56,893 nt of DNA from Gammaproteobacteria bacterium. GTDB lineage: Bacteria; Pseudomonadota; Gammaproteobacteria; Beggiatoales; Beggiatoaceae. The position numbers and the translations under genes are program-made. The notes below the pieces were generated by a model that was not told the origin of the DNA, ran no database searches, and saw only the letters and a program-made list of their open reading frames with translations. The stretch is taken from the NCBI GenBank assembly GCA_003645255.1, contig QNES01000006.1, forward strand, positions 1 to 56,893. The letters run 5' to 3'. Below are positions 28,064 to 55,000 of the stretch, one piece after another; within the stretch, counting starts at the first letter, position 1, and each line of letters begins with the position of its first letter.

Positions 28064-28091
28064 TCAGTTATCAGTTATCAGTTATCAATGG
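28064..28091 (-). repeat. TAACTGA heptamer array directly upstream of the DUF349 gene
   Basis: Read on the minus strand: CCATTGA, then TAACTGA three times, one T and the ATG start. The array occupies the place where a ribosome-binding site should be. Another TAACTGA array lies just before ribE. Confidence 0.8.
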
Positions 28092-48720: not shown

Positions 48721-50376
48721 ATGTTATCTTCAACATTATATGACGATTTGATGAACGTGATTTCCAATTTTTCTGAGCGTTCCCAAAAAGTGATACTAAG
48801 ACGCTTAGGCTTTAATGATCAATGTGATTCATTAGAAACCATTGGTCAAGATTTATCTGTGACACGCGAGCGTATCAGGCAGATCGAAGCCAGGTGTTTA
48901 CTAAGCATTAACGAAATTTGTGGTATTACCCTTAATAGCAAACTTAAAAAGTGTTTAACGAGGCGTAGAACTCCCCTTTACCTTGATTTATTAGAAGTAG
49001 AAGAACAGTGGTTCTTCGGTTTCTCAGATAAGCTTGTTTTTTTAGCGCATATAATCGAAAAGCTCACGAAAAATCATGTATTAAAAATCAAAGAACGGCA
49101 AGTAATTGCTCAAATTAATTGTGAACAGTGGAATTATCTTAAATCTGAAACACTGGCACGTCTAAAATCACAGGTGACAACAAAACCTTCACAAGCAGAG
49201 GTCAACAAACTGATTCGCCGCCTAGCCACCGAAAATGGGGCTTTAGAACTTGCCAATTTATTGCAAGAACTGCTTAAGGATAAATTGCATTTTGCCTCAC
49301 CGAAAGGAAAAGGTCCAAAAGTATTATGTAGTGTTGGACGTGGACTTTCTAGTCTCTTAGAAGCTTTTTTGCTTGAAGCGACAAAGCCGCTACATTATTC
49401 TGAATTAGCGCAAAAATGTTCTGTGCGGCTTGAACGGCGCGTAGAGGGCTATGTTCATAATAGTCTCAAAGATTTAGCTTATCTTTATGGGCGGGGCATT
49501 TACGGTACGCTAGCACATTTACCGATAAAGAGCCAGGATGATAAAAAAGCCATTTTAAGTATCACAGAAAGTATCATACGTGAAGGGCCAAGTGGGCGGC
49601 AATGGGCTTGTAGTGAATTACTTTCGATACTCAAAAAAAGAAAGCCTAGTTTACAGGCTAAATTGGATAAATATATACTCAATATCATACTCACTGAGTC
49701 AAGCATGTTAAAATCAGTGGGTCGTTTAGTCTGGATTTTGAAGGATAAAACTAATCAAGCCAAGGTACATAGAGTTGACTTACAGGAGGCTGTCAACACA
49801 ATTGTTGTAAATGCAGGTCATCCTATTTCTATTCATGAAATTAAAAAGATGATCATGGAAAAACGGGGCTTGGATGAGTATTTTACTATTTTACCAACGG
49901 CACGGATAGCTCGTGTTGGACCAAATATTTGGGGATTGGTGGATAGAGACTTTTTGCTCCCAAAAAAACAACGGCATAAAATGCTTGATACGCTTTATCT
50001 TTTGCTGGAAAAACGTCAAGAAGGATTGCATATAACGGAACTCAAGAATTTACTTATTAAAGCGGGAATAACTGTACCGCCTCACTTTACTAATTATATG
50101 TTATTAAGTCTGAGTCAGACTGATCCCCGTTTTAAGGTGCGCCGGGGACAGATAGTGGGTTTATCAAAATGGCCAGATGCAAAAAGAACCTCTATCAAGG
50201 AGGCTATAGAACAAATTGCCAAAAACTTTCATTCTCCAATGACCATGCAGGAAATACGCCATTCGATTGACGAAATTGTCAAGTACGAAGTAAAACAACC
50301 CTTACATCGGCTATTGGAAAATGCCAATTTTGTGCGTGATGAACGTTCAAATACTTGGTATGTGCAAGGGGAATAA
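48721..50376 (+). CDS. Sigma-factor region-4-like protein with several winged-helix (HARE-HTH-like) modules
   Basis: 551 residues, soluble. The N-terminus (about 18-66) reads SERSQKVILRRLGFNDQCDS then LETIGQDLSVTRERIRQIEA, which is the sigma-70 region 4.2 helix-turn-helix pattern. Regions 1 to 3 of a sigma factor are absent. The rest has repeated segments with the pattern P-(I/L/M)-(H/T/S)-x-x-E-(I/L): PLHYSELAQKC (223), HPISIHEIKKMI (367), GLHITELKNLLI (435) and SPMTMQEIRHSI (505), each followed by an R/G-rich wing (RARVGPNIWGLV, RRGQIVGLS). They resemble the HARE-HTH fold shared by RNA polymerase delta and some restriction proteins. It is probably a DNA- or RNAP-binding regulator; no partner gene is adjacent. 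Confidence 0.75.
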   Translation: MLSSTLYDDLMNVISNFSERSQKVILRRLGFNDQCDSLETIGQDLSVTRERIRQIEARCLLSINEICGITLNSKLKKCLTRRRTPLYLDLLEVEEQWFFGFSDKLVFLAHIIEKLTKNHVLKIKERQVIAQINCEQWNYLKSETLARLKSQVTTKPSQAEVNKLIRRLATENGALELANLLQELLKDKLHFASPKGKGPKVLCSVGRGLSSLLEAFLLEATKPLHYSELAQKCSVRLERRVEGYVHNSLKDLAYLYGRGIYGTLAHLPIKSQDDKKAILSITESIIREGPSGRQWACSELLSILKKRKPSLQAKLDKYILNIILTESSMLKSVGRLVWILKDKTNQAKVHRVDLQEAVNTIVVNAGHPISIHEIKKMIMEKRGLDEYFTILPTARIARVGPNIWGLVDRDFLLPKKQRHKMLDTLYLLLEKRQEGLHITELKNLLIKAGITVPPHFTNYMLLSLSQTDPRFKVRRGQIVGLSKWPDAKRTSIKEAIEQIAKNFHSPMTMQEIRHSIDEIVKYEVKQPLHRLLENANFVRDERSNTWYVQGE

Positions 50377-50417
50377 TTGTGAATTGGAAAAAGAATAAAA
50401 TAAAATAAATTAAGTAG

Positions 50418-50555
50418 AGGCTCTTGCAAAATGATTGTTTTAGAAACGTGCCTGAAATAACTTCGACTACTTTAGGGTTGAAGCAATGGATTACCCCTAC
50501 GATACGAACTTCATTAGAATGAATTATACGGCTAAAAACCGTTTTGCAAGAACCT
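50418..50555. repeat. MITE-like element with AGGCTCTTGCAAAA ends, 138 bp
   Basis: AGGCTCTTGCAAAATG on the left and CGTTTTGCAAGAACCT on the right are inverted with two mismatches. The shorter element at 44404-44498 has similar ends. The interior holds no frame of note. Confidence 0.6.
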
Positions 50556-50748
50556 TATTAGCCTAATTTTTTAATTAATAATTCAGATTCCCAATTCCCA
50601 TTATAGACATGTCTATAAAAAAATTTATATATCTTAGACATTATAGTGATTTAATGTAACCCATTGATTTACTTAAAATTCCTATTTTGCTAAAGCTAAT
50701 AAAATCAAACACTTAAATTAAATCGGTATAATATCTACTACTAATGGG

Positions 50749-50916
50749 TAAATTTCCGCCATTTAAAGTAAGTAGGTACGCAAAAGTCTTTTAATATTTT
50801 ATATTTTTAAAAATCCGTTAATAATCAATGGCGTTGCACGAAAACCACCTTGCCACCCTACAAAATGTTAATAAACTTTTGTGTATCTACTTATAAATTG
50901 ATTTAGCGGAAATTTA
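50749..50916. repeat. Inverted-repeat element with TAAATTTCCGC ends, 168 bp
   Basis: TAAATTTCCGC (50749-50759) and GCGGAAATTTA (50906-50916) are perfect. Inside, AAGTAGGTACGCAAAAGT (50769) and ACTTTTGTGTATCTACTT (50874) are a second inverted pair with three mismatches. The inner end recurs at 37985. Confidence 0.6.
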
Positions 50917-51081
50917 TAACGAAGTTTCACTTGACATATATGTAAGTCATAAGTATTATATCTACCACGTTACGTTTTTATGCCTGACTTTGGACACGTT
51001 TTTCAAAACGTTGGAACTATTCAAAATTATAGTCAAACATAAAGTTCTAAAAGCGTTATCAAGGTGGTGATACCAGGACAT

Positions 51082-51231
51082 AACGATCCTCCCTCCGGAT
51101 AAAAAGTCTAAGCTTTCATTAGGTGAGGGATGTGGGGTGGGTAACGTTAAAAAATGGTTACATTCAACGGAACGAGTGTTTATTAATTAAGTAACCCTAA
51201 GCTTCAGCGAGGGAATAATGGGTAGATCGTT
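51082..51231 (+). ncRNA. Possible structured leader RNA upstream of the globin-Mop gene
   Basis: Outer arms AACGATC (51082-51088) and GATCGTT (51225-51231) enclose about 136 bases that are less AT-rich than the flanks. Inside are CCTCCCTC pairing options with GTGAGGGA, GGGTAACG with AGTAACCC, and a direct repeat TAAGCTTTCA..GGTGAGGGA / TAAGCTTCAGCGAGGGA. It ends 149 bases before the ATG of the globin gene. I do not recognise it as a known riboswitch; it may also be repeat debris. Confidence 0.3.
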
Positions 51232-51379
51232 CCCCTGTACGGATATATAGAAATATTTCTGCATTATTCTATATTTCACGACAAAATCGCGATCTAGATT
51301 TCATTTGTTTATATATCTACAAATATCCATAAAATTGCTATCTTTCAGATATCAAAACATTTATGAGTACAGAACTGAT

Positions 51380-52258
51380 ATGAATACAGAACTGATTGGA
51401 CAAAGCTGGGATAAGTTGACGGATCAACATGACGTATTAGTACAGACACTTTGTGAAAGGCTGGTTAAGCAATATCCTAATTATGAAGCACTTTTTCCAA
51501 AAGATGTCTATCGGGTAATGTCAAAAATCGTAAGAACCCTAACGCTTGTTGCAAGGGTAGGTGATCCTGAAATCACGCAATCTCGGTTGGTGAAGTTAGG
51601 ATATAAACACCGTCAATTTAATTTGACTTCAAGCGATTTTTTGAATTTCAAAGGACTATTCCTGGAAGTATTAGGGGAATATTGCAATAAACATTGCCCT
51701 GATGTTTGGAATGAAACTTGTGTGCTGGCATGGGAAGAAGCTTTTGATAAAATTATCATTCCATACATGACGCAAGGATTAGAAAAAATGAGTCGTTCTG
51801 AAAAAATGAGACTCATTGATATGCAAACCAGTGCGGGAAATCAACTGTTAGGTACAGTCGTCAGCATCAAACAAGAAACGGTGTATGCCGAAATCACACT
51901 TAAACTCGAAGCAGGTGATCAGATCGTTGCGGTAGTACCACAACAGGGTGTAAATAACTTAAACTTGGTCATTGGTAGTCAAGCTTATGTACTTATTAGA
52001 AGCATCCATATCATGTTGGTACATGCTGATACGGAACTTCAATTTAGTACCCGAAATCATTTTTGTGGTCGGGTGATTAAAACTGAAAGCGGTGCTGTTA
52101 ATGCCAAAGTGACGCTGCAACTTAAAAGTGGTACGGTTTTTCACTCACTGGTGACTCAAGACACTATCACCGACTTAGAACTGAAAAAAGGAGAACGAGT
52201 GTGTTGTGTTTTCAGAGGTGTTGATGTCATTTTAGCCGTTGAAAAAGAACTGGGATAG
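51380..52258 (+). CDS. Globin domain fused to two Mop (molybdate-binding) domains
   Basis: 292 residues from the ATG at 51380; a frame open to 51305 uses a poor TTG. Residues 1-135 are a globin: LIGQSWDKLTDQHDVLVQTLCERL (A/B helices), YEALFP with the CD-corner Phe39, and LGYKHRQFNL with the proximal haem ligand H77. Residues 150-219 and 222-290 are tandem Mop/TOBE domains: SAGNQLLGTVVSI, VYAEITLKL, then STRNHFCGRVIKTESGAVNAKVTLQL and VFRGVDVILAVE. Mop domains bind molybdate or tungstate in ModE, ModC and molbindins. The fusion suggests a haem-based gas or redox signal joined to oxyanion binding. Cytoplasmic. A hairpin terminator follows. Confidence 0.85.
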   Translation: MNTELIGQSWDKLTDQHDVLVQTLCERLVKQYPNYEALFPKDVYRVMSKIVRTLTLVARVGDPEITQSRLVKLGYKHRQFNLTSSDFLNFKGLFLEVLGEYCNKHCPDVWNETCVLAWEEAFDKIIIPYMTQGLEKMSRSEKMRLIDMQTSAGNQLLGTVVSIKQETVYAEITLKLEAGDQIVAVVPQQGVNNLNLVIGSQAYVLIRSIHIMLVHADTELQFSTRNHFCGRVIKTESGAVNAKVTLQLKSGTVFHSLVTQDTITDLELKKGERVCCVFRGVDVILAVEKELG

Positions 52259-52308
52259 TTTCCACGGAACGAAACCAAAATATCTTCAGCATGGGAATAT
52301 CTTTTATA

Positions 52309-52336
52309 GAAACCCCGTTTTAAAAAACGGGGTTTC
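52309..52336. terminator. Palindrome after the globin-Mop gene
   Basis: GAAACCCCGTTTT and AAAACGGGGTTTC. It is a GAAACCCC/GGGGTTTC variant of the palindrome family, 50 bases after the stop and 35 before glyA. Confidence 0.65.
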
Positions 52337-52370
52337 TTACATCACTAAAATGAAGTCTTAACAAAAATCT

Positions 52371-53624
52371 ATGTTTTCAAATAATTTGAATATTGCGAAT
52401 TTTGATCCAGAATTATGGCAAGCGATGCAAAATGAAGTCAAGCGGCAAGAAGAACATCTCGAACTGATTGCTTCAGAAAATTATGCAAGCCCCCGCGTAC
52501 TCGAAGCACAAGGCTCAGTGTTGACGAATAAATATGCAGAAGGCTATCCTCGTAAACGCTATTATGGTGGTTGTGAGTTTGTTGATATAGCAGAGCAGTT
52601 AGCCATTGATCGTGCAAAACAATTATTCAATGCCGACTATGTCAATGTGCAACCGCATTCCGGTTCACAAGCAAACATTGCCGTTTATATGGCTTTATTA
52701 CAGCCGGGGGATACCATTTTAGGTATGAGTTTAGCGCATGGTGGACACCTAACGCATGGTTCAAAAGTCAATTTTTCAGGGAAATTATATCATGCAGTGC
52801 AATATGGTTTAAAAGCTGATACTGGCGAAATTGATTATGAACAAGTTGAAGCTTTGGCACTTGAGTATAAGCCGAAAATGATTATGAGTGGTTTTAGTGC
52901 CTATTCGCGGGTAATTGATTGGCAACGGCTGCGTGACATTGCCGATAAAGTCAATGCTTACTTAGTCGCCGATATGGCTCATGTTGCCGGTTTAATTGCA
53001 GGTGGCTTATATCCTAGCCCGGTGCAAATTGCCGATGTAACGACGACGACAACACATAAAACTTTGCGGGGGCCCAGGGGCGGCTTAATTCTTGCTAAAG
53101 CTAATCCTGAAGTTGAAAAGAAGCTCAATTCCTTAGTCTTTCCTGGGACACAAGGGGGACCTTTAATGCATGTGATTGCTGCTAAAGCTGTCGCGCTCAA
53201 GGAAGCTTTACAACCTGAATTTAAAACTTATCAAGCACAAGTCATAAAAAATGCACAAGCGATGACAACGGTCATCATGGCGCGGGGCTATAAAATTGTT
53301 TCGGGGGGTACGGATAACCACTTGTTTTTAATTGATTTAATTGAAAAAGGTATCACAGGCAAAGCCGCCGATGCCGCTTTAGGAGCGGCTAATATCACAG
53401 TAAATAAAAACACCGTACCTTCTGATCCACAATCGCCATTCGTAACCAGTGGACTTCGTATTGGTACGCCTGCGATGACTACGCGGGGCTTAGGTGTAAC
53501 CGAAGTTCGCCAGGTTGCCCATTGGATTTGTGATATTATTGATAATATAGAAAATATTGATGTACAAACATCAATCAAAGCCGAAGTATTAGCAATGTGT
53601 TCCCGTTTTCCAGTCTATAGATAA
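52371..53624 (+). CDS. glyA: Serine hydroxymethyltransferase
   Basis: 417 residues. It has the PLP-lysine motif [14 protein letters not shown] (K230), [33 protein letters not shown], and [15 protein letters not shown], all standard. The enzyme converts serine and tetrahydrofolate to glycine and methylene-tetrahydrofolate and supplies one-carbon units. It leads a likely operon with ribD and ribE; nrdR, which lies between glyA and ribD in many relatives, is absent. The start at 52371 has no strong ribosome-binding site (TCTTAACAAAAATCT upstream). Confidence 0.98.
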
Positions 53625-54958: not shown

Positions 54959-55000
54959 TAATTGATAACTTGTAACTGATAATTAATAACTGATAACTGA
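54959..55000 (+). repeat. TAACTGA heptamer array directly upstream of ribE
   Basis: Six consecutive seven-base units: TAATTGA, TAACTTG, TAACTGA, TAATTAA, TAACTGA, TAACTGA. They end 5 bases before the ribE ATG (AAAAC between), where the ribosome-binding site should be. Confidence 0.8.

Follow-up and report, generated by a model that had tools for sequence, protein, structure and literature searches.

A globin joined to two Mop domains

The forward strand of the 56,893-nucleotide stretch of Beggiatoaceae DNA analysed here (contig QNES01000006.1, hereafter the window) carries at 51380..52258 an open reading frame of 292 codons plus stop (ATG at 51380, stop codon at 52256-52258), in which Pfam and NCBIfam recognize a globin followed by two Mop domains, all on the + strand. 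The 3-over-3 globin spans residues 1-135 (51380..51784), as delimited by Pfam, a profile search of the PDB, the predicted model and VIA-align, the Pfam Globin profile itself covering residues 26-126 (E 1.2e-5; 26.2 bits, cut-off 22). In alignments with the bacterial globins HGbI (Hell's Gate globin I) and HGbRL, Phe39 falls at CD1, Lys49 (51524..51526) at E10, and His77 (51608..51610) at F8, the position of the proximal haem ligand. A linker helix of residues 139-149 (51794..51826), placed by the predicted structure and by linker scores, leads into a first Mop/TOBE domain at residues 150-215 (51827..52024; Pfam) and a second at residues 220-289 (52037..52246; NCBIfam). Two TOBE domains are called by Pfam from residue 150 (E 4.8e-16; 59.2 bits, cut-off 22.3), and two Mop domains by NCBIfam (TIGR00638, E 1.6e-28; 98.5 bits, cut-off 55). 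An earlier note on this DNA had proposed a globin at residues 1-135, with Phe39 in the CD region and His77 as proximal residue, and two Mop/TOBE repeats at residues 150-290; both assignments are borne out by profiles above their curated cut-offs and, for membership of the globin superfamily, by the fold, CD1 Phe and F8 His. No helix-turn-helix or other DNA-binding domain, and no signalling, kinase, cyclase or reductase domain, was found by Pfam in the 14 copies of the fusion described below.

The beginning of the gene lies in a tandem near-copy of 17 bp (51363..51396, + strand, read from the sequence), whose two units (51363-51379 and 51380-51396) share 16 of 17 bases. This near-copy creates a mini-ORF of six codons (MSTELI-stop, 51363-51383), the TGA of which overlaps the ATG of the fusion. 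By eye, neither ATG has a clear ribosome-binding site ahead of it, although most relatives do.

Both folds were recovered by structure prediction, a check that the earlier note had proposed. The model of the window protein (13 sequences; mean pLDDT 85.4, pTM 0.54) comprises helices at residues 3-134, the linker helix, and Mop strands and helices at residues 154-286; it superposes on ModG (1h9m) with 1.1 A over 141 residues (Z 22.7) and on HGbI with 1.9 A over 127 residues (Z 17.0; VIA-align), and Foldseek ranks ModG and ModE at the top, with flavohaemoglobins below. As pTM is low, the placing of the two halves relative to each other is not predicted. Sequence searches of solved structures agree for the second half, with matches to ModG (E 5e-21), to Tub/Mop proteins (E 4e-8) and to ModE (E 1e-5). 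On its own, the globin half gives a weak match to HGbI (E 0.01), and as a profile of 15 sequences it finds HGbI as its best PDB match (E 3e-13), together with HGbRL (E 5e-11). Classical sensor globins are named neither among the 35 PDB profile matches (E up to 0.001) nor among the 50 structural matches listed, an absence that does not exclude kinship.

Distribution and reality of the fusion

The full-length fusion occurs in 14 copies from 12 separate assemblies among 42 genomes of the order, which answers the survey of related genomes suggested in the earlier note. Globin and TOBE were both found by Pfam in 13/13 rows of the alignment (A2, window included), as well as in the copy of genome G061. 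With the globin profile, 27 of the 42 genomes match at E 1e-3, and 17 better than 1e-50: 12 carry the fusion, and five the globin alone (G003, G027, G005, G007 and G060), these counts leaving out a globin fragment at the edge of a G007 contig (C122) and any globin match with E above 1e-50. Among the genomes of 57 relatives, 27 gave some match at E 1e-3, with full-length matches in the window's genome plus 10 more. When named genomes were scanned, 11 records came up, namely Ca. Thiomargarita nelsonii (Thiotrichales in the NCBI taxonomy), two Ca. Parabeggiatoa, four Thiomargarita MAGs, three Thiotrichaceae MAGs and one Thioploca MAG, in which the globin is unfused. In the Ca. T. nelsonii copy (L003; L108 8982-9803), the usual MNTELI start is missing and the frame opens without the canonical N-terminus.

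Could the architecture result from an assembly error, or from accidental read-through of two genes? The tandem duplication at the start codon, present in the window copy only, is the one feature in favour of such an artefact. Against it stand the domain order, the same in all 14 copies of similar length, and pairwise dN/dS values below 0.5 (0.10-0.49; NG86) in the 12 of 14 domain comparisons for which dS was unsaturated. Because the full-length architecture recurs in 12 separate assemblies, a wrong join near position 51815, which the earlier note had named as a potential pitfall, is excluded, and the probability left to any artefact is negligible. The globin-Mop pairing of these giant sulfur bacteria is thus confirmed as real and common to many related species.

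The fusion is absent from the two genus-mates of the window's genome in the set (G001 and G002), and in a sample of 398 genomes of the phylum only the window's own genome matched at 1e-15. Globins matching at 1e-12 were found in 65 of 369 genomes sampled from the class, and no Mop match occurs near other globins in 49 loci of the order and class (10 from the order, 27 from the class and 12 further, about 1.5 kb searched on each side), a set in which some genes are counted twice and long frames are cut at the locus edges; as a control, both domains were found in 6/6 loci with fusions. Matches were obtained in 39 plasmid records, none over 80% of the query, and those listed (10) concern the Mop part only.

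Two genomes (G012 and G008) harbor tandem pairs of fusion genes (L101, 10790-12559, and L102, 9784-11615, respectively), with a rhodanese-like gene directly upstream in both, identified by a Pfam scan of the G012 copy. One copy of the G012 pair (G012b) groups with G008b in the trees, so the duplication may predate the split between these two genomes. Other arrangements of the same globin were also observed: frames of 285-312 aa in three fusion-bearing genomes, G018, G061 and G024 (L157, L158 and L159), match the globin profile twice and are thus double globins, and many genomes of the class contain frames of about 600-1,100 aa that open with a globin of this profile (L024, L026, L075-L095); in L024 and L026, a series of similar repeated segments comes after it.

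Selection and origin

The dN/dS values given above indicate that purifying selection acts on both halves of the protein. In the Mop tree, the 14 fusions fall on one side with weak support (63/71), a topology compatible with one fusion event; the globin tree requires three changes, and a single fusion clade is not rejected (AU p 0.158). The linker was compared with that of ModE by ranking windows of each protein against ModE linkers, a shift of one residue being allowed for G013 and G030, where there is a deletion. In 8/14 fusions, the octapeptide that precedes Met-Gln-Thr-Ser comes among the top five windows, and in the other six it ranks 9 to 54. In our reading of these sequences, either a ModE protein may have lost its HTH domain to a globin, or a globin gene may have captured a ModE-type Mop pair.

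A conserved lysine in a loosened haem pocket

CD1 Phe and E10 Lys are present in 19/19 members of the family (14 fusions and five unfused globins), as is Cys102, found in 0/6 outside relatives. F8 is His in 5/5 unfused members and in 11/14 fusions (16/19 members overall), and Tyr in the three others (G013, G030 and G025). The F8 His-to-Tyr replacement (L006, L007 and L008) thus affects two distinct branches of fusions, one with G013 and G030 and the other with G025. B10 is Tyr in 11/14 fusions and Cys in the window; E7 is Gln or His in 6/14 (Gln in 5/14) and Val in the window. The window protein therefore lacks the Tyr B10 and Gln E7 of HGbI/HGbRL-type bacterial globins, described for HGbI as Tyr29 and Gln50 in passages of PMC4476040 and PMC11203436. 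The complete trio (Tyr B10, Gln or His E7, His F8) is found in 5/14 fusions, 5/5 unfused family members and 5/6 unfused outside relatives, a difference between fusions and unfused relatives (10/11) with a Fisher p of 0.012 uncorrected for kinship; against the unfused family alone, p is 0.033, likewise uncorrected and with two near copies (G003 and G027) among the five. The haem features read from the window in the earlier note thus hold for CD1 and F8, but they sit in an altered pocket (Cys B10, Val E7), and in three fusions F8 is Tyr.

These substitutions bear on whether the globin still carries haem. It might have lost the cofactor after fusion, or be losing it, and now act on a molbindin as a structural element or protein-binding module; a haem-free globin, Bacillus RsbR, is mentioned as a precedent in the excerpted text of PMC4476040. 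The Tyr at F8 on two branches would fit, as would B10 other than Tyr in 3/14 fusions and E7 neither Gln nor His in 8/14, when 10/11 unfused relatives have the trio. On the other hand, the window protein keeps F8 His, CD1 Phe and E10 Lys, F8 His persists in most fusions, and between the window and G032 it is the globin that shows the lower dN/dS (0.14, versus 0.23 for Mop; NG86). Loss of haem is regarded as rather unlikely.

Window Lys49 aligns in the profile alignment with Lys52(E10) of HGbRL, a globin with a C-terminal Roadblock domain, in which this residue is described as binding the haem iron in the closed form, with a large movement upon ligand binding that its authors propose to pass a signal to the fused Roadblock domain (PMC4476040, in part). 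HGbI has a lysine at E10 too, which lies outside the pocket in its structure.

An altered oxyanion site

In the tungstate storage protein Tub, the type-2 site is formed by Ser4, the backbone of Arg6, Lys60, Ala61 and Ser40 of the neighbouring chain, according to the part of PMC11980592 consulted. When scored as a quartet (Ser4, Arg6, Ser/Thr40 and Lys60, Tub numbering), this site is found exactly in 28/30 halves of ModE/ModG relatives (11 ModE, 10 of them from the order and one from outside, and four ModG-like proteins), versus 0/28 halves of the fusions. In the window protein, the first Mop is degenerate (Ser, Gly, Pro, Arg), and the second reads Ser, Arg, Thr, Arg and keeps the type-1 motif Gly-Ala-Val-Asn. 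The window protein has the two-Mop arrangement of ModG and the molbindins without their exact type-2 oxyanion site. The likeness to molybdate binders claimed in the earlier note stands for the fold and the domain calls, and fails for the exact quartet.

If Arg is allowed at position 60, 11/28 halves from 10/14 fusions qualify, and if position 40 is disregarded as well, a half with Ser4, Arg6 and Lys or Arg60 is present at least once in each of the 14 fusions. The Arg of Ser-x-Arg-Asn has disappeared from the first Mop in 8/8 copies of the window's clade (clade A) and from the second Mop in 4/4 tandem copies (G012 and G008); it is kept in both halves in G025 and G023, and no fusion has lost both. 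As every fusion retains a Ser-x-Arg-Asn half, one half per chain seems to have been kept, although in an altered form. Loss of Arg6 need not abolish binding either, since this residue acts via its backbone in Tub.

Another possibility is that the globin alone does the work, for instance as an NO dioxygenase or a scavenger of NO or sulfide, with a Mop pair that has lost oxyanion binding and would merely act as a trimer handle. The missing quartet agrees with this, as does the retention of CD1 Phe and, in most members, of F8 His; the globin also occurs unfused in 5/42 genomes, and so works without Mop. On the other side, every fusion keeps a Ser-x-Arg-Asn half with a basic residue 60, the loss is reciprocal between clades, the distal pocket is less conserved in fusions than in unfused relatives, and Pfam detects no reductase domain. 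This role too seems on balance unlikely.

Genomic context, molybdenum and nitrate genes

The surroundings of the fusion were compared in 18 neighbourhoods, 12 of them with fusions and six with globins that are unfused or partial, both by clustering the reading frames and by eye, and nine neighbour proteins were scanned with Pfam (four from the window, five from other neighbourhoods). No molybdenum gene adjoining the fusion was seen by eye in these neighbourhoods, and no match to ModB, NarG, NapA or a separate TOBE protein was found on fusion-bearing contigs, several of which are short. An operon with molybdenum genes was considered and rejected, the surroundings of the fusion not being conserved. 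Beyond the rhodanese gene of the tandem pairs, the only shared pieces are, near the G033 and G013 copies, a gene for an MscS-type channel and, by eye, a grpE-dnaK-dnaJ-dapB-like run. In Ca. T. nelsonii (L108), a molybdoenzyme-like cluster lies a few genes away, as judged by eye.

Around the window copy, a 551-aa protein encoded upstream (48721-50376) has an N-terminal sigma-70 region 4 (Pfam E 1.6e-7) and is otherwise without Pfam matches at 1e-3. On the other side lies glyA, which is not beside the fusion in five relatives checked. Between the fusion and glyA, the inverted repeat AAACCCCGTTT/AAACGGGGTTT (52310-52335) looks by eye like a terminator, and a terminator scan of 50300-52500 found none and did not report this repeat. 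An FNR-type site was sought in 11/14 upstream regions, 10 of which were no better than shuffles; the region upstream of the G025 copy has a site with one mismatch, equalled by 11/200 shuffles. Elsewhere in the window, TAACTGA repeats occur at 28064-28084 and 54973-55000, partly head to tail, the whole window having 14 copies for 7.3 expected (2/100 shuffles reach 14); this heptamer is reported 1175 times in a Thiomargarita genome in the text retrieved from PMC4853749.

At the scale of genomes, the window's own encodes ModB and a ModC-like protein with TOBE (contig C228), NarG (C27) and NapA (C19), and no other di-Mop protein at E 1e-5. A NarG match is present in 8/8 genomes of clade A, that of G013 being partial and under the family cut-off, and NapA in 6/8; neither enzyme was found at E 1e-100 in G012, G008, G023 and G025 (4/12 carriers). 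The link with nitrate respiration suggested in the earlier note thus suits the window's genome and its clade, but not those four carriers. ModE proper (HTH_1 and two TOBE domains) was identified in 10 genomes of the order (HTH_1 at E up to 1e-3, 8/10 over the Pfam cut-off), a count that leaves out two di-Mop frames of 274-284 aa in G016 (C444 and C24). There is no sign that the fusion replaces ModE: of the 42 genomes, 12 have the fusion, 10 ModE and two both, for about 2.9 expected by chance. In G005, ModE lies about 1.7 kb from ModB, by contrast with the fusions. G016 has four di-Mop frames (C444, C24, C337 and C128), with C444 near a ModB-like gene.

In which direction would a signal travel within the protein? 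A globin followed by its partner is the order of chimeric globins, and an N-terminal domain followed by Mop that of ModE, so both directions are conceivable. If Mop were the input and the globin the output, as for the N-terminal domain of ModE, molybdenum or tungsten sufficiency would switch globin activity, for example NO removal, when nitrate reduction by a molybdoenzyme is running. The ModE-like order with the HTH swapped for a globin, the ModE-like linker in 8/14 fusions and the NarG match in all eight clade-A genomes are in line with such a flow; the four carriers devoid of NarG and NapA and the variable distal pocket go against it, and we consider it improbable.

A possible haem-gated oxyanion binder

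Taken together, the explanation that we tentatively prefer, with a probability of about 0.35, is that the protein bears haem and binds oxyanions in the manner of ModG, coupling a haem signal to molybdenum or tungsten handling. The function put forward in the earlier note, a haem sensor that would control oxyanion storage or release, is thus partly supported and, as a hypothesis, still comes first. The fusion would then be a globin-coupled molbindin, in which the C-terminal Mop pair has the fold of Azotobacter ModG and probably its assembly too, a trimer holding a few molybdate- or tungstate-type oxyanions, each chain bearing an N-terminal haem globin where ModE has its DNA-binding domain. In the resting state, the haem iron may be held by Lys49(E10) and His77(F8) together; binding of a diatomic molecule or of sulfide would push Lys49 off the iron and shift both helix E and the linker helix, which could alter how tightly the Mop trimer holds its oxyanions, or to which recipient they are handed over. 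The output would be a redox- or gas-gated release of molybdenum or tungsten rather than transcription: with DNA-binding, kinase, cyclase and reductase domains all absent from the Pfam matches, we favour the view that the haem state directly controls how the oxyanion is held.

This explanation is supported by the role of the E10 Lys of HGbRL as haem ligand, with a large movement upon ligand binding, and by the invariance of E10 Lys in the family (19/19); by an architecture kept in 14 copies with both halves under purifying selection; by the close superposition of the model on ModG (1.1 A) and HGbI (1.9 A); by F8 His in 11/14 fusions and 5/5 unfused members, with CD1 Phe throughout (19/19); by the Ser4/Arg6/Lys-Arg60 half found at least once in each fusion, with Arg lost from opposite halves depending on the clade; and by the ModE-like linker of 8/14 fusions and the globin-first order usual in chimeric globins. 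It is weakened by the lack of the type-2 quartet (0/28 versus 28/30) and the rarity of the haem trio (5/14 versus 10/11), by Tyr F8 in three fusions, the low pTM and a linker that is not ModE-like in 6/14, by the absence of ModB, NarG, NapA or separate TOBE matches from the fusion contigs (several of them short) and the unconserved surroundings, and by the two genus-mates without the fusion and the 4/12 carriers without nitrate reductases.

A bolder version, which we hold to be quite unlikely, is a two-ligand metalloprotein with both pockets repurposed: haem held by Lys49 and His77 would read sulfide, NO or oxygen, the altered Mop trimer would read, in place of plain molybdate, another oxyanion such as thiomolybdate or a different one from sulfidic habitats, and the maturation of molybdoenzymes would be set directly through contact between proteins, with no transcriptional step. 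The Cys found at B10 of the window protein and, on the Mop side, the Lys-to-Arg change and the reciprocal Arg losses might reflect such repurposing.

If haem and oxyanion binding were indeed coupled as in the preferred explanation, the fusion would provide a link at the protein level between gas or sulfide sensing and molybdenum or tungsten supply, in organisms that shuttle between oxygen, nitrate and sulfide. The globins would gain a partner domain not found in the open-access globin papers searched, and Mop a use beyond transport, simple storage and DNA binding. With its reciprocal arginine loss from clade to clade and a haem pocket that became looser upon fusion, the protein would make a tractable case of ligand change in a fused sensor.

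Comparison with known systems

The earlier note knew of no globin joined to Mop, and no published globin-Mop/TOBE fusion was found in the open-access literature, the scope of the search, subscription journals lying outside it. In the text available of a 2006 globin census, the chimeric classes are flavohaemoglobins and globin-coupled sensors, the usual order is an N-terminal globin and a C-terminal partner, and the string 'molybd' is absent (PMC1457004). A survey of TOBE proteins in gut genomes distinguishes storage, transport and regulation classes, with no globin architecture and no occurrence of 'globin domain' in the part consulted (PMC11980592). Neither 'globin' nor 'molybd' appears in the main text, as retrieved, of two papers on Thiomargarita genomes (PMC4853749 and PMC4914600). 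Both parts of the protein belong to known families, and their union is, as far as we could see, unreported in the open-access literature.

Cyclase and kinase domains are known partners of chimeric globins. Globin-coupled sensors and flavohaemoglobins resemble the fusion in having an N-terminal globin and a C-terminal partner, but this partner is a methyl-accepting, STAS or reductase domain, not Mop, in the passages of PMC4476040 that describe them. HGbRL (PDB 3wfw) comes closer, with a related N-terminal globin, a Lys at E10, 274 residues and a putative sensor role; its partner is however a Roadblock/LC7 domain, an association found only in Methylacidiphilum according to the same excerpts (PMC4476040). 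HGbI (PDB 3s1i and 3ubc) is the best solved match of the globin domain, and differs from the window protein in being a single domain with Tyr B10 and Gln E7. On the Mop side, ModG of Azotobacter vinelandii (PDB 1h9j, 1h9k and 1h9m), a molbindin with eight oxyanions per trimer, shares with the fusion a tandem Mop pair without HTH (35% identity), but has no globin and keeps the exact binding quartet in both Mop halves. ModE (from E. coli and in 10 copies in the order) has the same overall plan, with an N-terminal domain, a linker, two Mop domains and a similar length, the N-terminal domain being HTH_1 in 10/10 ModE scanned and a globin in the fusions.
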